A stretch of 64,000 nucleotides of DNA, taken from the NCBI RefSeq assembly GCF_005503365.1, contig NZ_SCML01000017.1, forward strand, positions 1-64,000, read 5' to 3'. The notes beneath the pieces are model-generated. The model worked only from the letters and a program-made list of their open reading frames with translations. It made no database searches and was not told where the DNA came from. This DNA is from Hydrogenophaga sp. 2FB. Its GTDB lineage: Bacteria > Pseudomonadota > Gammaproteobacteria > Burkholderiales > Burkholderiaceae_C. Position numbers and translations under genes: made by a program. The first letter of the stretch is position 1. Every line of letters starts with the position of its first letter. Positions 2,020-44,397 of the stretch are shown in pieces.

Positions 2020-2973
2020 TCAGAAGTTGTGGGCCAGACCCACGCCCCAGCCGGTGATGGCCTTGTCAGCTGGCGAGCCGTTAAAGCCCACTTGAGCATT
2101 CTTCTTGCGGCCCAGGTTCACGTAAGCCGTGGTGCGCTTGCTCAGGAAGTACTTGTAGCCGCCGTGAATCACGCGGGTGGTGCCAGCACCAGCTTCGCTA
2201 GCGTCAACGGAAGCCCACAGTTCGCCAGGGCCCACAGGAGCGGTCACACCCAACGCCCAGTCGTTGTCGCCATTGGATGCGACGTTGGCGCGATCGTTGT
2301 ACGAGAAGAGCAACTTGGCCACGCCGAAGTTGTACGAAGCGGCGAACAGACGCAGGGAGGTCATGCCCGGCTCCACTTGGCCCACGTTCTTCGAGTAAGC
2401 GAAGTTCACAGCCACAGGGCCGTTGGCGTAGGACACGCCGAAAGCGCGGTGTGCGTTAACACCAGCAGCTTCGGAAGGAGCGTACGAAATCTGGCCGCTG
2501 AAACCACCGAAGGTCGGGGTCTGGTACAGCACTTGGTTGTCAACGTACACGGCGTTGGTGAACAGGGTGTTGTTACGCGTGCTGTAGCCGGTCACACCCT
2601 TGGTGCTGTTGGCGGTCAGTGCGTAGAAGAAGGTGGGGTTGAACGAACGACCCAGCTTCAGGGTACCAAAGCCACCTTGCAGGCCCACGAACATGTCGTT
2701 GTTGCCCAGCACGTTGCCGGCGGTGGTGCCATTGCTGGCGTCAAAGGAGGTCGACACCTTGAAGATGGCCTTCAAACCGCCACCCAGATCTTCCGTGCCG
2801 GAAATGGTCCAGTTGCTGGTGCCCAGACGGCTGGACGTCATTTCCAGAGGACTCACGCGGCCACCACGGTCTTCGAGGCCGACGTCAACGGTACCGCTCA
2901 GGGTCACGGAGGATTGTGCGAATGCGGCGCTGGTGGCTGCCACGGCGGCCAGAGCGATCAGGGTCTTTTTCAT
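2020..2973 (-). CDS. Gram-negative porin (second copy, divergent)
   Basis: A 317-residue porin of the same family as its neighbour. The start at 2973 gives a signal peptide ([20 protein letters not shown]), then [31 protein letters not shown] and GFGTLKLGR are family landmarks, and the protein ends in GLAHNF with the barrel-assembly phenylalanine. It is shorter than the 354-residue neighbour and clearly diverged from it, so this is an old duplication or a distinct porin. GGAG lies about nine bases before the ATG. It is divergent from coq7, with a 285-bp intergenic region between them. Confidence 0.95.
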
Positions 2974-3105
2974 GGAAGGTTTCTCCAAGGGTTTAAAAAG
3001 GGCCGGGGGTCTTTGCCACCGAGCCAACCTCCATTCAGGAAGCTGCGCCAATTGCATCAGAAAGTTTCCCGAGGCGCCATGTTGGTATGCTCATTTGCGC
3101 CGTTA

Positions 3106-3130
3106 CAACGGTGCATCCGTTGCACCGTTG
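3106..3130. promoter_or_regulatory. Inverted repeat between porin and coq7, possible operator
   Basis: The arms CAACGGTGC (3106-3114) and GCACCGTTG (3122-3130) are perfect 9-bp inverted repeats with a 7-nt spacer, in the 285-bp gap between the divergent porin and coq7 genes. The position fits a regulator-binding site for the porin promoter. No regulator can be named from sequence, and no clear -35/-10 pair was identified nearby. Confidence 0.4.
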
Positions 3131-3258
3131 CCACGAAGCTGGTGTTTACCCGGACGTCCAGACGACCCACAGGACCGGCCGAACCGATTCATCGCGGTCC
3201 ATCCGAACCGTGGCAGCATGGGCGCACCACTGCACATTCCACTGGAACCCTCAACACC

Positions 3259-3921
3259 ATGCGCACCCCCACCGATGCCCTGCTGATCACCGCCGATGCG
3301 GCGTTGCGCACCCTGTTCGTGACCCCACGGGCTTCACGCGAGTGCCCCACGCTGCCAGAGCGCGCCACGGATTCCGAACTCGACGCGACGGAGCGAGAAC
3401 TCTCGGGCGCACTCATGCGTGTGAACCACGTGGGCGAGGTTTGCGCGCAGGCGCTCTACACCGCGCAGGCGCTGGCGGCCCGCTGGCCGCGTGGCTCGGG
3501 AAAAAGGCCAGACGAAGCGCTGGCCCTGCAGCTGGAGGCGGCCGGACGGGAGGAGACCGATCACCTGGCCTGGACCGAGGCGCGTCTCGAAGAGCTCGGT
3601 GCGCGTCCCTCGCTGCTCAATCCGCTCTGGTATGCCGGTGCGTTTGGCCTGGGCCTGCTCGCCGGACGCATGGGGACGGGCGTGAGCCTGGGTTTTGTGG
3701 TGGAAACCGAGCGCCAGGTGGAGGCGCACCTCGCCAGCCACATGGACCGCCTTCCCGCCACGGACCAAGCGTCCCGGGCGATCGTGGCGCAGATGAAGGA
3801 TGACGAGGCGCGCCATGCACGCGAGGCCGAACATGCCGGCGCGGTGGCGTTGCCGTGGCCAGCGAAGGCGCTGATGCGAGCCGCCGCGAAAGTGATGACG
3901 ACGGTGGCACACCGGATCTGA
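3259..3921 (+). CDS. coq7: 2-nonaprenyl-3-methyl-6-methoxy-1,4-benzoquinol hydroxylase (Coq7/UbiF-equivalent)
   Basis: A 220-residue membrane-associated diiron hydroxylase that catalyses the last ring hydroxylation of ubiquinone biosynthesis; in many betaproteobacteria Coq7 replaces the flavoprotein UbiF. The ferritin-like ligands are visible: NHVGEVCAQ (first Glu), EETDH (second iron-binding Glu/His), ETERQVEAH and DDEARH. A hydrophobic segment at [14 protein letters not shown] matches the membrane-binding helices. The start at 3259 was chosen because the reading frame upstream runs through the opposite-strand porin and has no family similarity. It converges with the OsmC gene, 21 bp downstream. 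Confidence 0.93.
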
Positions 3922-3942
3922 ACGGCGCGCCCCGCAAGAACC

Positions 3943-4392
3943 TCAAGCCTCCAGCAAATCGAAGCTGGTGGTGATCTCCGCAGTCTTGCCCAACATGATG
4001 CTGGCCGAGCAGTATTTGTCGTGGCTCATGGCGATGGCGCGCTCGACGGCCAGGTTCGGGATGCCCTTGCCGCTGACGCTGAAGTGCATGTGGATCTTGG
4101 TGAACACTTTCGGGTCGGTTTCAGCGCGCTCGGTGGTGAGTTTGACCGAACAGCCCCGAACATCATGCCGGCCGCGCTTGAGGATGAGCACCACGTCGTA
4201 AGCGGTGCAGCCGCCCGTGCCTGCCAGCACGGTCTCCATGGGACGAGGCGCCAGGTTGGCACCGCCATTCTCGGGCTTGGCGGCGTCGGGCGCGCCATCC
4301 ATGGCAATCACATGGCCCGTGCCGGTCTCGGCAGTGAAGCCCATGTGGGAGCGGGTGCCGGCCGCGCCGGTCCAGGTGACGGTGCATTCCAT
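3943..4392 (-). CDS. OsmC family peroxiredoxin-like protein
   Basis: A 149-residue cytoplasmic protein of the OsmC/Ohr superfamily, thiol peroxidases that reduce organic hydroperoxides. Visible features include the central PMETVLAGTGGCTAYDVVLIL segment, where the buried helix carries the first reactive cysteine, and a second cysteine in SHDKYCSAS near the C-terminus. The length and cysteine spacing suit the YhfA/OsmC-like branch more than classical Ohr; subfamily assignment is uncertain. It is convergent with coq7 and divergent from the promoter and possible small RNA at 4468-4580. Confidence 0.85.
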   Translation of the reverse strand: MECTVTWTGAAGTRSHMGFTAETGTGHVIAMDGAPDAAKPENGGANLAPRPMETVLAGTGGCTAYDVVLILKRGRHDVRGCSVKLTTERAETDPKVFTKIHMHFSVSGKGIPNLAVERAIAMSHDKYCSASIMLGKTAEITTSFDLLEA

Positions 4393-4467
4393 GGTGTGTC
4401 CTGTCGTGAAAGATCCAACGCTATTGGGGAAGGCGCTCTAAAAATCATAGAAATGCGGCTTACATTG

Positions 4468-4495
4468 TTGCAATGCAGCATAAGCGCGTTATACT
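4468..4495 (+). promoter_or_regulatory. Sigma-70-like promoter
   Basis: TTGCAA (4468-4473) and TATACT (4490-4495) are separated by 16 bp and are the best -35/-10 pair seen in the osmC-ilvA gap. Transcription would start at about 4502 and run straight into a strong intrinsic terminator at 4545-4580, before the ilvA start at 4612. Confidence 0.6.
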
Positions 4496-4501
4496 GGCGT
4501 C

Positions 4502-4580
4502 ATTGTATTTACGGTTGTCTCCTCTACCCTCCACGGGTGGATTTAAGCCCGGTCCGGTTCTGCCAGACCGGGCTTTTTTT
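4502..4580 (+). ncRNA. Candidate small RNA or terminated leader upstream of ilvA
   Basis: A promoter-like sequence at 4468-4495 is followed after about 50 nt by a textbook intrinsic terminator: arms 4545-4554 and 4566-4575, then a T-run to 4580. This would make a transcript of about 80 nt. Its unpaired 5' part includes GTCTCCTCTACCCTCC, a pyrimidine-rich stretch able to pair with Shine-Dalgarno sequences, as in Hfq-type small RNAs. No leader peptide rich in branched-chain codons was seen, which argues against classical ilv attenuation. It could still be an ilvA leader with conditional readthrough. Confidence 0.5.
4545..4580 (+). terminator. Intrinsic terminator before ilvA
   Basis: Ten-base arms (AAGCCCGGTC at 4545-4554, complement at 4566-4575) with an 11-nt loop and a T-run of about seven bases. 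It sits 31 bp before the ilvA start, so it either ends a small RNA or controls readthrough into ilvA. Confidence 0.85.
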
Positions 4581-4611
4581 CGCCCCGATATGATGTGCGC
4601 CGAGGAACCAC

Positions 4612-6222
4612 ATGCCATCCACGTCTGCCCGCCCCCCACAACAACGCAATTCACAGAGCGCTTCGCCGCTCACCCTGATGGGGCCCGCAGACTACTTGAA
4701 AAAAATTCTGACCGCTCGCGTTTATGACGTGGCGGTGGAATCGGCGCTGGAAACCGCGACCGACCTCAGCCGCAGGCTGCGCAACACAGTGTTGCTCAAG
4801 CGCGAAGACCAGCAGCCGGTGTTCAGCTTCAAGTTGCGCGGCGCTTATAACAAGATGGCCCACCTGTCGCCCGAGCAGTTGAAAAAGGGCGTGATCTGCG
4901 CCTCCGCCGGTAACCACGCCCAGGGTGTGGCGCTCGGGGCGCGCAAGTTGGGCACGCGCGCCGTGATCGTGATGCCGACCACCACGCCCCAGGTGAAGAT
5001 CGATGCGGTGCGTGGCTTTGGCGGTGAAGTCGTGCTGCACGGCGACAGCTACTCCGATGCGTACACACATTCGCTGACCCTGCAAAAGAAGCAGGGGCTC
5101 ACCTTCGTGCACCCATTCGACGACCCGGACGTGATCGCGGGCCAGGGCACGATCGCCATGGAAATCCTGCGCCAGCTGCAAAGCCTGGGCTCCGACCACC
5201 TCGACGCGGTGTTCGTGGCCATCGGCGGCGGCGGCCTGATTTCCGGCGTGGCCAACTACATCAAGGCCGTGCGACCCGAAATCAAGGTCATCGGGGTGCA
5301 GATGAACGATTCGGACGCCATGCTCCAGTCGGTTCAGGGTGGGCAACGCGTGACGCTGCCCGATGTCGGCCTGTTCGCGGACGGCACCGCCGTCAAGCTG
5401 GTGGGCGAGGAAACCTTCCGCATCGCCCGCGACCTGGTCGACGGCTTCATCACCGTGGACACGGATGCCGTGTGCGCCGCCATCAAGGACGTGTTCGTGG
5501 ACACGCGCAGCATCGTCGAACCCTCCGGGGCGCTGGCGGTGGCGGCCATCAAGCAGTACGTTGCGACGCACAAGACGCGCGGCGAGACCTACGCGGCCAT
5601 TCTGTGTGGCGCCAACATGAACTTCGACCGGCTGCGTTTCGTGGCCGAGCGCGCCGAAGTGGGCGAAGAGCGCGAGGCGTTGTTTGCGGTCACGATCCCC
5701 GAAGAACGCGGTAGTTTCCGGCGCTTCTGCGAGGTGATCGGCGAGCTGCCGGGCGGCGCGCGCAACGTGACCGAGTTCAATTACCGCATCCACGACGGCA
5801 GCCAGGCCCATGTGTTCGTCGGCCTCACCACCCACGGCAAAGGCGAGTCAACCAAGATCGCTGCGACCCTCATCAAGCACGGCTTTGAAACGCTGGACCT
5901 GACGCACGACGAGCTGGCCAAGGAGCACATCCGGCACATGGTGGGGGGGCATTCGCCGCTCGCGCACGACGAGCGCCTGCTGCGTTTTGTGTTCCCGGAG
6001 CGTCCGGGCGCACTGCTGAAGTTCCTGAATCTGCTGCGCCCGGGCTGGAACATCAGCCTGTTCCACTACCGCAACCAGGGCGCGGACTACGGCCGCATCC
6101 TGGTCGGCCTTCAGGTGCCACAGAAGGACCACAAGGCATTCGACAAATTCCTGAACGCACTGGGTTATCCATATGTCGAGGAAACAGGCAATCCGGTATA
6201 CCGTCTGTTCCTGAAAAGTTGA
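4612..6222 (+). CDS. ilvA: Threonine ammonia-lyase (biosynthetic threonine deaminase)
   Basis: A 536-residue PLP enzyme converting L-threonine to 2-oxobutanoate, the committed step to isoleucine. The fold-type II domain has the PLP lysine in FSFKLRGAYNK and the glycine loop AIGGGGLISG; the C-terminal third (from about residue 350, EEREALFAVTIPEERGS) carries two ACT-like regulatory repeats, the second beginning around LLRFVFPERPGALLKF, as in isoleucine-inhibited long-form IlvA. The start at 4612 has a GAGGAA ribosome-binding site. An ATG at 4678, nearer the conserved ADYLKKILTA, is an alternative. Confidence 0.95.
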   Translation: MPSTSARPPQQRNSQSASPLTLMGPADYLKKILTARVYDVAVESALETATDLSRRLRNTVLLKREDQQPVFSFKLRGAYNKMAHLSPEQLKKGVICASAGNHAQGVALGARKLGTRAVIVMPTTTPQVKIDAVRGFGGEVVLHGDSYSDAYTHSLTLQKKQGLTFVHPFDDPDVIAGQGTIAMEILRQLQSLGSDHLDAVFVAIGGGGLISGVANYIKAVRPEIKVIGVQMNDSDAMLQSVQGGQRVTLPDVGLFADGTAVKLVGEETFRIARDLVDGFITVDTDAVCAAIKDVFVDTRSIVEPSGALAVAAIKQYVATHKTRGETYAAILCGANMNFDRLRFVAERAEVGEEREALFAVTIPEERGSFRRFCEVIGELPGGARNVTEFNYRIHDGSQAHVFVGLTTHGKGESTKIAATLIKHGFETLDLTHDELAKEHIRHMVGGHSPLAHDERLLRFVFPERPGALLKFLNLLRPGWNISLFHYRNQGADYGRILVGLQVPQKDHKAFDKFLNALGYPYVEETGNPVYRLFLKS

Positions 6223-39702: not shown

Positions 39703-40130
39703 GCGAGGCTCTCAATCGACTGAGTGCTTGATCGTCGCTAAAAGGGGGATGGCTCGCAGGTTGGCACTCAGCGAGAGCATGTGTCGAATCTTTCGACCCA
39801 ACGGCGGCTTCAGACTGGACTGAGTCACCCGCGGCCGACGTCCTGGAAGACGGCAGCTTTCAACACCGAGCGGTCGATGGCAAGTGCTCCGTAGGGCAGC
39901 AATGCCGCCAAGACTGGCAAATCGATGAGGTGTGGCCGCAGGCCATTCTCGGACCGGTTGCGCGCGAGGCGAACTGGAGTTGTCGACTCACTGCGGCCGG
40001 TCACTGTTCCCGAGAGCGGTTGCAGGTGCTCAGTAAAAACAGACATCTAGCGTGCGAAAGGTTGTTTGGGGAAGCACCTTTCATCATCTTGGTAGAGTTC
40101 AGTCACCCAAAGCATAGCTCGTCAATATCC
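39703..40130. other. Left boundary of the defence island; no confident gene
   Basis: This 428-bp stretch is where base composition changes from GC-rich to AT-richer DNA. It has a 73-residue minus-strand frame (39825-40046) with no family features. The plus-strand frame leading into the SIR2 gene extends back to 39930 but has no similarity to SIR2 proteins before 40131. No tRNA, integrase or direct repeat marking an attachment site was recognised. Confidence 0.5.
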
Positions 40131-41690
40131 ATGTCTATCAAAGATGATCTCATTGCCCATTTTTCCGAAGCGCCGTCGGCGCCATTTCTATTCGTCGGCT
40201 CCGGATTCTCCAGGCGATATCTGGGCCTTGAGGACTGGAGTGCACTATTGCAGCGTTTCTCAAAAGACCTAAAACCCTACGAGTACTACCTAACAAGCGC
40301 GGATGGAAAGCTACCGCGCGTTGCCTCACTTTTAGCGGCCGATTTCCATCAACACTGGTGGACATCTGACGTATACAAGGAAAGCAGGGAAAAAAACAAG
40401 GCGAAGGCAAAGGATGCAACGTCGGCACTTCGCATTGAGATATGCAACTACTTAAGTGTAACGACTCAATTAGGCCCGGCAAAGGAGTACGCCGAAGAGA
40501 TTGCCCTTCTATCGAAATTGAACGTTGATGGTATTGTCACGACTAACTGGGACACATTGCTTGAGAATCTCTTTCCAGACTACAAGGTATTTGTTGGTCA
40601 GAATGAGCTATTATTTTCTAACACGCAGGCGATTGGTGAAATCTACAAGATACATGGGTCAACATCGAGACCTGCTTCGCTTGTCCTGACAGAAGAGGAC
40701 TATGATGGATTCCACTCGGCAAATCCGTATTTGGCAGCCAAACTCATAACAATTTTCGTAGAGCACCCTGTCGTTTTCATTGGATACTCGTTAACGGATC
40801 CGAATGTGCTTGATCTCCTTCGCGGCATCACGTTGGTCTTAGGGCAAGATAACCTAGTAAAACTTCAGAACAATCTCATTTTTGTCCAACGAGCACACGG
40901 TCAGCAGGCGCAGTACAGCAAAACACTTATTGCTATTGATGGAGGACAGCTTCCCATTACGATCGTTAAAAGCGATAGTTACGCTCCAATCTATGAGGCA
41001 CTAGAGTCGATAAAACGAAAAATCCCGGCACGAGTTCTGCGGTATTGTAAGGAGCAGTTATACGAGATGGTGCGCAACACCGAGCCATCCGAGAAGCTAT
41101 GCGTTGTTGATGTTGACGATATTGACAAGAAGGAAGATATCGAATTTGTGGTTGGAGTTGGCGTAGCGAGCGAAAAGGCTGGTCAAATCGGCTATCACGG
41201 CATTAGCGTCTTAGATTTATTCAAGGACTTTCTCGCTGATAAAAGTAAGTTCGACGCAAAAGCAATTTTGAACAAGACTGTTCCCGACCTAGGTCGGGGT
41301 GCAACATACATTCCAGTATTCAGGTACCTTAAAGAAGCCGGTATCAACACTCAGGAGGCGTACAAAAAATCCGGACTTTTTCTTGCAAAGCATCTTCCTT
41401 TAAAGGGTGCCGAACACTACCGATCACGCCCATATGCGAAGCCCTTCGTCAAGACAGAAAAAGACAAAACTGCGGACCAAATTATCGCAACCAACTCACC
41501 AGAAAAGGCCGCAATGTTTCTTCCATACCTTTCCAAGGATCGTTTTGACGTCGCGGCGGTGAGAGCGTTTTTGCTAAAAAATGTTGATAGATTCGAGAGC
41601 AGCTTTCCTTACTCCACCTATTTTAGGAAGCTAGCTTGCCTATGTGACTATTATCAGTTTGGGTGGAGTTCACGCACAAAGATCGAATAA
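40131..41690 (+). CDS. SIR2-domain antiphage NADase
   Basis: A 519-residue protein. Residues 1-230 are a SIR2-like Rossmann domain: FLFVGSGFSRRY (NAD-binding loop, residues 20-30), TTNWDTLLE (Asn139 and Asp141), YKIHGS (His175) and FIGYSLTDPNVLDLL (residues 216-230). These are the residues used by defence SIR2 enzymes such as ThsA and DSR2 to cleave NAD+. The C-terminal 290 residues are not recognised and would sense infection or mediate assembly. The start at 40131 puts the SIR2 motif at the usual distance from the N-terminus. Codon use is AT-rich. It is transcribed with the retron genes 214 bp downstream. Confidence 0.85.
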   Translation: MSIKDDLIAHFSEAPSAPFLFVGSGFSRRYLGLEDWSALLQRFSKDLKPYEYYLTSADGKLPRVASLLAADFHQHWWTSDVYKESREKNKAKAKDATSALRIEICNYLSVTTQLGPAKEYAEEIALLSKLNVDGIVTTNWDTLLENLFPDYKVFVGQNELLFSNTQAIGEIYKIHGSTSRPASLVLTEEDYDGFHSANPYLAAKLITIFVEHPVVFIGYSLTDPNVLDLLRGITLVLGQDNLVKLQNNLIFVQRAHGQQAQYSKTLIAIDGGQLPITIVKSDSYAPIYEALESIKRKIPARVLRYCKEQLYEMVRNTEPSEKLCVVDVDDIDKKEDIEFVVGVGVASEKAGQIGYHGISVLDLFKDFLADKSKFDAKAILNKTVPDLGRGATYIPVFRYLKEAGINTQEAYKKSGLFLAKHLPLKGAEHYRSRPYAKPFVKTEKDKTADQIIATNSPEKAAMFLPYLSKDRFDVAAVRAFLLKNVDRFESSFPYSTYFRKLACLCDYYQFGWSSRTKIE

Positions 41691-41904
41691 TTTTCGGACA
41701 TTTCAGTCGCTCTTGACTGTGGTGCCGAACATCTCGACACAGAGGTTGAGGGTGTTCTCGAGATTTTCGAGAAAACAAAGACCTGAGGAAATCACCTGCG
41801 ACCGCACTGACTCTCGAGTCGGGGTGGCCGCTCTGGCTGGGAGCATTGGGGGCATATCCCTGATATTGAGATAATATTCGTGAAATAAATTGTACAAGGC
41901 AGCT
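41691..41904. promoter_or_regulatory. Intergenic region upstream of the retron operon
   Basis: A 214-bp gap holding a 7-bp hairpin (41755-41761 with 41767-41773) and an AT-rich stretch with a TAATAT box at 41872-41877, a plausible -10 element; no well-spaced -35 was found. An AAGG sequence lies six bases before the effector ATG. It probably carries the retron promoter. Confidence 0.4.
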
Positions 41905-42474
41905 ATGAGGGCACCATCAGTCGAAAGGTTCGGGGAGGACGTTCGGAAACTCTTTGCGGAGAACCGAATGGTGGTTTTCCTATGCGGCCCCTCTCTCCTC
42001 TTGGCGGACAAGAATCCGGGAGCAGCACTGCGCAAGCGACTCAAGGATGCTCTAGAAGTAGAGGGCTTTGAGGTTGTACTTGGCGAAGATGATGGTCTTG
42101 AAGACGTTCGGCTGACGGAAACGGGAGGCTACGCCCACGACAATGAACTTGAGTTCATCCGGCGTGAATGTGGTGCAATTGTTCTTATTGCCGATAGCGT
42201 TGGTTCATTTTGTGAATTGGGATTGTTTGTGCACTGGCTCGCCAACAACCCTGACAGAACGTGCGATTTCGTCTTGATTGCAGACGAAAAATACAAGGAT
42301 GATAAATCATATTTCAACGAAGGCCCAGCAAATGCCGCCGAGCATTTTGGTCGGACCTTATACGTGGAATTCGCGACTGCCGATATAAAACCAATTCTTA
42401 AACGATTGAGAGGGCGGCGGTCAACTCAGTTGTTTTCCGGTCATGGACGCCCGGCCGGAAGAGTTAAGTCATGA
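41905..42474 (+). CDS. Retron effector, nucleoside-deoxyribosyltransferase-like
   Basis: A 189-residue protein with a Rossmann-like fold resembling nucleoside 2-deoxyribosyltransferases. VVFLCGPS (residues 23-30) is the first strand and phosphate loop; SFCELGLF (101-108) has the Glu104 that would be the nucleophile; HDNELEFIRRECGAIVLIADS is typical of the family. The type II-A retron effector of E. coli Ec86 has the same domain fused to a C-terminal winged helix; here that part is absent from this protein. The start is ATG 41905. The stop overlaps the reverse-transcriptase ATG (ATGA at 42471-42474). Confidence 0.75.
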   Translation: MRAPSVERFGEDVRKLFAENRMVVFLCGPSLLLADKNPGAALRKRLKDALEVEGFEVVLGEDDGLEDVRLTETGGYAHDNELEFIRRECGAIVLIADSVGSFCELGLFVHWLANNPDRTCDFVLIADEKYKDDKSYFNEGPANAAEHFGRTLYVEFATADIKPILKRLRGRRSTQLFSGHGRPAGRVKS

Positions 42475-43958
42475 GTGTTAATGTCAATACTCGACTGATA
42501 AGACTCGGTCTTGGATGTATTCAGCCGGCAAGCGCGGATGATGTCAGCAAATTTCTGGCGTTATCTCTCGAAGTTGAGGAAGAGCCGATTTCTCCAGAAG
42601 CAATCCAAATCATCTTAGATGAATGGTCCTCGCAGAAGGATGTTGTCTGCGTGCATTTAAGGCAGCGACTATATTCGCTAACCCGTCAAGGTGACGGGAG
42701 GCTGACACCGAAAGAGAGACATCTTCGAGACAAAACCAGACTATTTTTGCTCAAGGAGCTTCGAGCTGCTACACTCAGAAGGCCAGAAGCTGAGGAACCA
42801 GAGAAGGCTGATGTTTCGTCAGCCGTATTTATTGACTCAGCGACACAAGAGGAGCGGCCAAAAGGCGCGGCCGCCAATCCTCGCGTAGCTCCGGGTGCCG
42901 GCCGCGCCTTTTGGCCGCTCCTAGCTAAGCAACTTTTTGTTGGCTCTTCCCCTTCAGCTTCTGGCCTTCGTTTCCGCTTCTGCTCCTTCCCCACAATTTC
43001 AGACTGCTGCAAGGCGGCAGGCGATGATTCTATTCCTGCGGATGGAATAGGAATTAACGAAATCTCCTTAGGTTTGGGTATTAGCCCAGGCTTATTGACA
43101 TCATTTCTAGCTAGACCCGAGCGGTACTACCGAGTCTTCGAAATTCCGAAAGCGAATGGAAAATCAAGACAAATTCAAGCTCCAAGAACGATGATCAAGG
43201 TACTTCAGTACTTTTTTTTGGACTATCTACTCAATTGGCTTGAAGCTCATCCAACGGCGACGGCCTACTCGCGCGGCAGCTCAATTAGAAAGAATGCTCA
43301 GGTACACACCGAAAAAAAATATGTCGCAAATATTGATGTGTCAAACTTCTTTCCATCGCTCACGATAGGCATCGTTGCCAAAAGCTTAGTAGCTGCGGGT
43401 TTAAGTAGTAACACCGCAGTACTGGTAGCACGGCTTTCTTCATACAAAGGGGGACTTCCACAAGGTGCTCCGACAAGCGCTGCCTTGTCGAATATCGTTA
43501 TGCGCGAATTTGACGCAAGCGTGTCAGAATCATGCAATTCGCTTGGCGTCAGCTACACCCGATATGCTGATGACATGACGTTCAGCGGGATGGAGTTGGA
43601 TGGCGTCAAGCAAGCGATCTGCTTTGCAAAGGAGCGCCTCACAGAAATGCGGTTGACGCTCAACGATCAAAAGACAAGGATATTCGGCCCAGGCACTAGG
43701 CAGGTGGTCACCGGTGTTGTGGTCAACGATTGGCCTCAGCCTTCACGTGTGGATCGACGGCGTTTAAGAGCTGAGTTGCATCAAGCAAAAATCTCACCGG
43801 CCAACTCCGTCGCAAAGTACCAGCAACTGCTGGGACGCGCGGCCTACATGCTTTCGTACGCCAGAGAGGAGAGACCAGTGGGAGCGATATCGAGGGCATA
43901 CGTGGAAGATGCTTTAGCTGGCGTGAAGATGCTAAGGCACTTTACGCACAATGAATGA
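42471..43958 (+). CDS. Retron reverse transcriptase with N-terminal extension and embedded msr-msd
   Basis: A 495-residue open frame. Residues 1-102 look like a winged-helix domain (SADDVSKFLAL, ISPEAIQIILDEW, LYSLTRQGDGRLTPKERHLRDKTRLFLLK). About residues 103-166 are translated from the putative ncRNA at 42778-42969 and have noncoding-like composition. From about residue 195 the sequence is a retron reverse transcriptase: NAQVH at 275-279 (the retron NAxxH motif), NIDVSNFFPS, LPQGAPTSAALSN, YADD at 365-368 and VTG at 413-415. The RT part alone, about 320 residues, is the usual length. The only usual in-frame start after the RNA is TTG 43074, too far inside the fold to be convincing, so translation through the RNA is likely. 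Confidence 0.9.
   Translation: MSVNVNTRLIRLGLGCIQPASADDVSKFLALSLEVEEEPISPEAIQIILDEWSSQKDVVCVHLRQRLYSLTRQGDGRLTPKERHLRDKTRLFLLKELRAATLRRPEAEEPEKADVSSAVFIDSATQEERPKGAAANPRVAPGAGRAFWPLLAKQLFVGSSPSASGLRFRFCSFPTISDCCKAAGDDSIPADGIGINEISLGLGISPGLLTSFLARPERYYRVFEIPKANGKSRQIQAPRTMIKVLQYFFLDYLLNWLEAHPTATAYSRGSSIRKNAQVHTEKKYVANIDVSNFFPSLTIGIVAKSLVAAGLSSNTAVLVARLSSYKGGLPQGAPTSAALSNIVMREFDASVSESCNSLGVSYTRYADDMTFSGMELDGVKQAICFAKERLTEMRLTLNDQKTRIFGPGTRQVVTGVVVNDWPQPSRVDRRRLRAELHQAKISPANSVAKYQQLLGRAAYMLSYAREERPVGAISRAYVEDALAGVKMLRHFTHNE
42778..42969 (+). ncRNA. Putative retron msr-msd RNA inside the RT reading frame
   Basis: The ends pair over 16 perfect bases (42778-42793 with 42954-42969), as a1/a2 repeats do. 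Just inside is an 8-bp stem with a UUU loop (42806-42824), the hallmark msr hairpin bound by retron RTs. Next comes a perfect 24-bp stem with a 25-nt loop (42850-42873 with 42899-42922), the size of an msd hairpin. A small stem with a T5 loop (42928-42945) follows. An AGC that could hold the branching guanosine lies at 42788-42790. The order a1, msr, msd, a2 is canonical, and the total of 192 nt is normal. The unusual feature is the location within the coding frame, with no stop in 64 codons. Confidence 0.72.
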
Positions 43959-44397
43959 GGCACTCGGGGCACAGTGATGAGTTAAGGGGCGCCCCATGAC
44001 GAAGTGTGTTTGCGCTGCTAGCCAGCTACAGGCTGCAATGGGTCACCATTGCCTGTTCGGCGGATCAGCGAGGGCCGCTCAGGCGGGCGTCAATCTCAAG
44101 GCCGCAAACAATGTCAGCATGGCCCCTGACCGGTCACTAAGTCAGCGCCATCACTGAGACCTGGATGACGGAGATGTGGTGGGCACGGTGAATCGCAGGT
44201 GCCTCCAACAGTGCCGGAGCCGCTGCATAGCCGACGAGCAGAACACAACGCGCAAAGGCCGGTGGCAGGACGCGTTGAGGCGTCGTCCCCGGTACCGAGC
44301 CTGATCGAACTGCACCTGACTGAGAGATCCAAGCGCCCAATGCCAACGTGGTATTTTTGCGTTTGCCCATGCGCGCCACAACTCAGGAGACGATCCG
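43959..44397. other. Right boundary of the defence island and halogenase upstream region
   Basis: A 439-bp gap in which composition returns to GC-rich. A short plus-strand frame (about 54 codons from 43996) and minus-strand frames (for example 44137-44379) have no recognised features. GGGGCGCCCC at 43986-43995 is a perfect short palindrome after the retron stop without a clear T-run. The sequence before the halogenase-like gene includes CAGGAG as its ribosome-binding site. Confidence 0.45.

Follow-up and report, generated by a model that had tools for sequence, protein, structure and literature searches.

Does the reverse transcriptase (RT) gene of a retron in Hydrogenophaga sp. 2FB carry its own template RNA within its reading frame? 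An earlier note, made from the letters alone, proposed that it does. We followed this up in the window, by which we mean the whole 64,000-nucleotide stretch of contig NZ_SCML01000017.1 that was analysed. In the retron cassettes described in the sections of PMC6868368 used here, the msr-msd lies upstream of the RT and not inside it. This customary layout, with the msr-msd outside the RT coding sequence, does not hold in the window, where the RNA occupies codons 103-167 of the RT frame. The locus is very probably a type II-A retron whose template RNA, the msr-msd, lies in frame within the RT gene.

The retron begins with an NDT-type effector gene (41890-42474, + strand), assigned to type II-A from its sequence and the PADLOC model NDT_II-A PDLC02929 (E 8.4e-52); its start is either TTG 41890 or ATG 41905. 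The TGA of this gene shares bases with the ATG of the RT gene in an ATGA overlap. The RT gene itself (42471-43958, +) encodes a fused protein of 495 aa, identified with PADLOC and Pfam, in which a winged-helix domain, a linker encoded by the msr-msd and a reverse transcriptase follow one another. PADLOC RT_II-A PDLC02940 aligned residues 1-468 with profile positions 1-458 of 477 (E 1.9e-135), and Pfam RVT_1 also matched (E 4.3e-21). Both components by which PADLOC recognises type II-A, an NDT_II-A effector and RT_II-A, are present in the window. The 477-position length of the RT_II-A model suggests that fused proteins of this kind were among those on which it was trained; the PADLOC II-A models presumably derive from Mestre 2020.

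The reverse transcriptase domain spans 42970-43955 (+), and its closest solved structures are those of the Retron Ec86 RT (E 2.6e-67; Foldseek E 2.0e-19). It carries the hallmarks that section 7 of PMC6868368 defines for retron RTs (YADD, NAXXH in region X and VTG in region Y), as NAQVH at 43293-43307, YADD at 43563-43574 and VTG at 43707-43715 on the + strand. N275, H279, Y365-D368 and G415 are invariant in a 17-row alignment, in which V413 and T414 are nearly so. The winged-helix-like N-terminus that the earlier note had read from the sequence agrees with the predicted fold of residues 1-102 (42471-42776, +), for which a fold search returned PadR/MarR types. Two Retron-Eco1 filament chains appeared at ranks 11 and 14 of this search with E-values of 0.06-0.08 that are not significant alone, and were absent from the best 50 rows of a second structure aligner. 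A sequence profile of the winged helix gave no significant match in the PDB (best E 0.041).

The NDT gene is preceded, at a distance of about 200 bp and on the same strand, by a gene for a SIR2-domain protein (window 39930-41690, +; PADLOC PDC-S25, E 7.7e-185), which forms a small defence cluster with the retron. Elsewhere in the host genome, contigs C50 and C88 hold two more RT genes (L006 and L007), whose frames are open for 636 and 604 aa; their size suggests that they may encode group II intron proteins.

The nested stems that had been proposed were re-read from the sequence, and all pair as claimed. The outer a1/a2 stem forms 16 of 16 pairs (42778-42793 with 42954-42969), and the predicted fold lengthens it to 18, so that a1 spans 42778-42795 and a2 42952-42969; both arms are backed by pairing, fold and covariation. 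Within it stands the msr hairpin (42806-42824), in which an 8-bp stem (42806-42813 with 42817-42824; seven Watson-Crick pairs and one G-U) closes a UUU loop, with 98.9% of cells paired in 11 sequences. The msd stem pairs at 24 of 24 positions. Its 5' arm (42850-42873) is supported by pairing, fold and covariation, and its 3' arm (42899-42922), which encodes the peptide AFWPLL, by pairing, translation and covariation. A small conserved hairpin, CAAC-TTTTT-GTTG (42930-42942), sits between the msd stem and a2 and is paired in 100% of cells in the same 11 sequences. All of these features are on the + strand. Folding of 42771-42975 gave -113.4 kcal/mol versus -68.6 +/- 4.8 for shuffled sequences (z -9.4), and none of 200 shuffles folded as well.

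These predicted dimensions fall within the retron norms of section 6 of PMC6868368. That section places the msr 5' of a long msd hairpin, with a1/a2 of 8-30 nt and msr hairpins of 7-10 bp with loops of 3-10 nt; the window has 16-18 bp, 8 bp with a 3-nt loop, and an msd of 24 bp. The same section describes a conserved priming guanosine within a TAGC motif, or a variant of it, located at a1's inner end. The canonical TAGC was not found in the window. By likeness to such motifs our guess at a candidate branch guanosine is the G at 42801, within CAGA, which is invariant (position 31 of alignment A4). The identification of the whole as an msr-msd stands on this anatomy together with the flanking RT_II-A and the adjoining NDT_II-A. 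The claim that the RNA fills exactly 64 codons is right in length (192 nt); the RNA begins at position 2 of codon 103 and is not codon-aligned. The frame 42471-43958 is open throughout, as had been said.

We searched genomes, GTDB contigs and viral contigs for relatives and found at least 21 more proteins that combine winged helix and RT within a single open frame, which makes 22 with the window. They occur in Pseudomonadota, Thermodesulfobacteriota, Chloroflexota and viral contigs, and the clade is spread over phyla and is no one-off; named hosts include Burkholderiales, Pseudomonas, Stutzerimonas, Hydrogenophaga, Accumulibacter, Janthinobacterium, Desulfobacterales, Alteromonadales, Parvularcula, Hoeflea and a Chloroflexi MAG. 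A single record bears the label Nanoarchaeota, possibly because the contig was mis-binned. From the genome scan the best 80 of 395 loci were kept; they had been ranked by their likeness to a fused query, so that the set is tilted towards fused members. Viral contigs gave no match when scanned with a three-row alignment; the 17-row alignment (best 80 of 431 loci) recovered L091-L093 as fused members. L091 and L092 are near-copies, and L019 and L001 are one contig, which entered the count a single time. The 4 matches in plasmid records, and the 10 listed among 24 phage matches, contained only RTs that match from about residue 210 onward. The fused family is rare: at E <= 1e-70, four of 398 phylum-wide genomes matched, one of them, L004, being a split system, and further, overlapping samples gave 1/369, 1/385, 1/250, 2/197 and 1/196 genomes. 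An annotation or frame error as the source of the fusion was rejected, as 22 separate records agree, though they are not independent by descent.

In 21 of the 22 fused members, the first ORF upstream of the fused gene matches NDT_II-A and lies no more than 97 bases away. In L001 (2928-4208, - strand) and L021 (2173-3489) the NDT forms the C-terminus of a larger protein whose N-terminal part matches LmuA models, and in L003 (89-1501) that of a larger protein whose N-terminal part matches DUF626_VIII; by eye, these three N-terminal parts look protease- or hydrolase-like.

If the structure is a functional RNA, its stems should be kept across these members, and the earlier note had asked for an alignment of homologues on this point. 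Covariation was measured, on the structure predicted for the window, in 11 of the 22 members, those that align well over the RNA region. Paired cells made up 88.9% of the total versus 34-48% when partners were slid by 1-3 columns, 32 of 58 pairs had changed on both sides versus 8-12 when slid, and the covariation score was 0.377 versus 0.091-0.130. Changes in the stems are thus largely compensated. None of 500 shuffles reached the paired percentage, the changed pairs, the changed cells or the covariation score; a fifth measure, further pair types (56 against 50.6), was equalled in 16 of the 500. Support is weakest for the outer a1/a2 stem (helix 1), which pairs poorly across distant members: 15 of its 18 pairs had changed on both sides somewhere in the 11 sequences, and 74.7% of its cells pair.

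A covariance model, R1, was built from the same 11 sequences. In 21 of 22 members it located the RNA within the frame and always at the same place, including 10 of the 11 members outside its building set: seven from genomes (E 8.5e-12 to 7.7e-19) and three from viral contigs (E 6.2e-11 to 2.6e-14). The member it missed, L045 from Hoeflea (3327-5012), is fused and lies within the clade, has a differing predicted msd, and showed no NDT match in the single upstream ORF examined (134 aa); it is a possible degenerate or divergent subtype.

With the same model we looked for an msr-msd elsewhere in the operon, which would have pointed away from the embedded RNA, and found none elsewhere in the window. 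The host genome likewise gave no second msr-msd among the 150 of 2168 first-look candidates that were scored, the sole other match being an antisense shadow at the same place. This single location, as far as candidates were scored, and its constancy in 21 of the 22 members bear on whether the hairpins are instead a transcription attenuator, an RNA-processing site or a palindromic repeat unrelated to reverse transcription. The hairpin at 42806-42824 (+) and part of the msd arm (-) do score as terminator-like, and no Rfam family, retron or other, matches the RNA at the gathering score. Terminator-like sites are nevertheless no commoner than in shuffles (3 found, 2.6 expected), and an attenuator or repeat would not account for the full retron order, the retron RT and NDT alongside or an msr hairpin similar to that of Eco1. 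We regard an origin unrelated to reverse transcription as highly improbable. Permissive Rfam matches (mir-3926 and others) were rejected as artefacts of the perfect msd stem. Far from the retron, the window also holds a match to Rfam Betaproteobacteria_toxic_sRNA RF02278 at 4516-4581 (+; 53.8 bits). A promoter scan of the + strand from 41650 to 44150 revealed no promoter-like site, which near the RNA fits supply from the operon transcript and proves nothing.

Homologues were also to show whether the frame is kept open through the RNA, and it is unbroken in all 22 fused members. Over the 21 R1 matches the RT frame contains no stop in 1420 codons, versus 53 in 1419 and 72 in 1399 for the other two forward frames. 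The length of the match is 1 mod 3 in 20 of 21; in the exception, L020, the frame is still open. Codon phase at the match start was 0 in all 10 members outside the R1 building set, whereas the 11 building sequences had been trimmed by us at codon boundaries, which fixes their phase at 0 in advance. In 19 of 19 rows, with L045 among them, the msr hairpin has its closing pair in one and the same codon register, the register being taken from frames set by the protein alignment. As controls, the RNAs of the unfused L057, L029 and Eco1 systems have stops in all three frames, and the partial match in L023 leaves one frame free of stops. Under a dinucleotide Markov model the chance that a single member lacks a stop is 2-41%, and the product of these chances is 2.8e-22, a figure that ignores shared ancestry.

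That per-member chance, and the fact that short GC-rich stretches are often stop-free, leave room for an accidental open frame: an ordinary retron ncRNA, with winged helix and RT made as separate proteins, as they are in neighbouring systems, and the RT translated from an internal start. Codon and start-codon tables, compiled for 19 rows that exclude L091-L093, show an in-frame ATG, GTG or TTG between the RNA and the RT core in 17 of the 19, four of them with a four-base Shine-Dalgarno-like match, and some RT could therefore start internally. The window's candidates after the RNA are two TTGs (43074 and 43095; residues 202 and 209), and its next ATG is residue 241. However, both TTGs lack a Shine-Dalgarno-like match and lie within predicted RT helices, and L016 lacks any in-frame ATG, GTG or TTG over the whole stretch between the beginning of the RNA and the conserved RT motif YR220; L015 has none in frame after the RNA. 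Taken with the stop-free frame over 21 members and with indels that come in threes, this makes an accidental frame unlikely, and we continue with an RNA that is probably translated as part of the RT gene.

We then compared how the bases of the RNA stretch change with how those around it change, using five member pairs for codon positions and seven for synonymous and nonsynonymous sites. Substitutions at the three codon positions numbered 47/47/49 in the RNA stretch, the only flat segment (p 0.97), versus 156/113/275 in the winged helix, 32/24/78 just after the RNA and 419/275/895 in the RT (each p below 1e-8). Synonymous divergence was 0.09-0.29 in the RNA stretch versus 0.68-0.90 in the flanks, and the nonsynonymous-to-synonymous ratio within the stretch was 0.36 in one pair and 0.65-1.10 in six. 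Flat codon positions and slow synonymous sites together indicate that the bases are held as nucleic acid while the frame is held open. On these substitution patterns, the peptide from the RNA stretch appears at most weakly selected.

AlphaFold2, run with the 17-row alignment, gave a pLDDT below 50 at residues 102-165, the sole run of three or more such residues, and this is the span encoded from a1 to a2. The RNA-coded part of the protein is accordingly predicted to be a flexible linker. Selection might still act on that linker as protein, through motifs such as SPS and WPxxxxQL, with the stems as a by-product; in 17 rows W148 and Q154 are nearly invariant and S116 is invariant. Yet the W and Q codons sit on invariant or nearly invariant RNA bases, TTGGCC and CARCT, and no confident fold is predicted for the segment. 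As the stems covary and synonymous sites evolve about as slowly as the others, conservation for the sake of the peptide has very little probability.

How such a gene could work is suggested by its layout. Ribosomes would read through the RNA to yield a winged helix-linker-RT protein. The RT of Eco1 recognises its msr hairpin (PMC6868368, section 7), and the fused RT would likewise bind the 8-bp, three-nt-loop msr hairpin, on other transcript copies or after cleavage. It would prime at the 2'-OH of the conserved G (candidate 42801) and copy the msd stem, giving an msDNA of perhaps 95-105 nt. RT, msDNA and the tethered winged helix would then silence the NDT effector until phage infection, as described for retrons. 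Since the same nucleotides are both code and template, a transcript that is bound or copied by the RT would be untranslatable, and this exclusion of message and template on one molecule would place a built-in negative feedback on RT level. We therefore offer, tentatively and with rather more doubt than the embedded RNA itself, the picture of a self-limiting retron: each transcript may act as RT message or as template, RT binding or copying of the msr-msd may block or destroy the message, and the RNA-coded tether may join the DNA-binding domain to the RT, with RNA gene and linker co-selected over several phyla on nucleotides and open frame, though not detectably on the peptide.

We found no description of a retron RNA inside an RT frame in the parts of the literature searched, which included PMC12548924, PMC9252829, PMC8989520 and PMC6868368 and did not extend to the founding retron classification. 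The parts and the retron type are already known, and the element that appears new is the location of the RNA inside the frame. Retron RNAs are sought next to RT genes; because this clade hides its RNA inside coding sequence, searches of upstream regions would miss it and annotate just a long RT. The locus clearly exemplifies how a structured RNA can share its bases with an open reading frame, the two constraints being distinguishable through codon positions. With it one can test whether a message's translation is regulated by its reverse transcription, and it illustrates that fusion through an RNA gene can create a domain tether.

The remaining question is how the fused form arose. A tree was built from 90 RTs, for which 164 RT ORFs were reduced to 134 (a single ORF per locus, none shorter than 200 aa, no locus beyond L140) and finally cut to loci up to L096 besides the fused ones. 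All 22 fused proteins fall into a supported group (100/93) that takes in just two other rows, L027 and L094, both truncated where their contigs end; in L094 the frame stays open as far as the contig start, and the linker end is of the same kind. Owing to these two cut rows, the fused label needs three changes on the tree. As far as sequence comparison can establish it, compensatory changes preserve the RNA structure, the frame is open in a fixed register and the fused form is a clade.

The adjoining group (100/96) comprises L004, L023, L029 and L032, and to call it sister assumes a root outside the 28-row group, as the tree is midpoint-rooted. These systems share with the window an NDT_II-A gene and an RT, with a small ORF between the two; unlike in the window, all parts are separate, the small ORF ending before or within the RNA and the RT having its own frame. 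In L004, L023 and L032 the small ORF is recognisable as the N-terminal domain of the fused proteins, matching the RT_II-A N-terminus (E 2.7e-7 to 1.4e-5); in L029 it matches only HTH_IX, weakly (E 0.0017). That of L023 matches both the PDLC02940 N-terminus and the C-terminus of NDT_II-A PDLC02930 (172-271 of 272). R1 weakly placed an RNA between small ORF and RT in L023 (E 0.009) and L029 (E 0.0003) and found none in L004 and L032. In L029 (2910-3362) a small helix-turn-helix-like frame enters the RNA and stops inside it, an arrangement that is plausible as a half-way stage to the fused form.

Retron-Eco1 (Ec86; E. coli BLR(DE3), L171) also matches the II-A models and shares the order of NDT, winged helix, ncRNA and RT. 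Its effector gene (1590-2513) is overlapped in its last 13 bases by the ncRNA (2501-2669), and its RT is a gene of its own (2733-3638), whereas in the window the NDT is a separate gene with its own stop, and a single frame runs through winged helix, ncRNA and RT. R1's best match in Eco1, a weak one (E 0.025), is the msr hairpin, whose 8-bp stem carries a 3-nt loop; the model matched nothing else of this RNA. The Eco1 effector matches PADLOC NDT_II-A to its end, and we take its C-terminus to carry the winged helix. The II-A retrons described here instead join a DNA-binding domain to the RT and not to the effector. Type III-A systems such as L057 (Pedobacter) resemble the window in having a winged-helix gene (WH_III-A, E 4e-31), an ncRNA (R1, E 2.1e-5) and an RT in succession, and differ in that the proteins are separate and the stop-free RT frame begins inside the RNA; to us, the L057 gene upstream of the winged helix reads like a phosphoribosyltransferase. 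Extra N- or C-terminal parts in the RT polypeptide are also a feature of the Retron-Eco2 (Ec67) RT fusions and the N-terminally extended myxococcal RTs in sections 7 and 8 of PMC6868368.

Since the neighbouring systems and Eco1 keep the same order, the succession NDT, winged helix, RNA, RT seems to be common, with differing punctuation. The fused form most likely arose from this order by loss of stop and start signals. In one of the split systems, L004, the RT frame (1360-2580) appears by eye to be extended at its C-terminus into a LuxR-type helix-turn-helix-like part.
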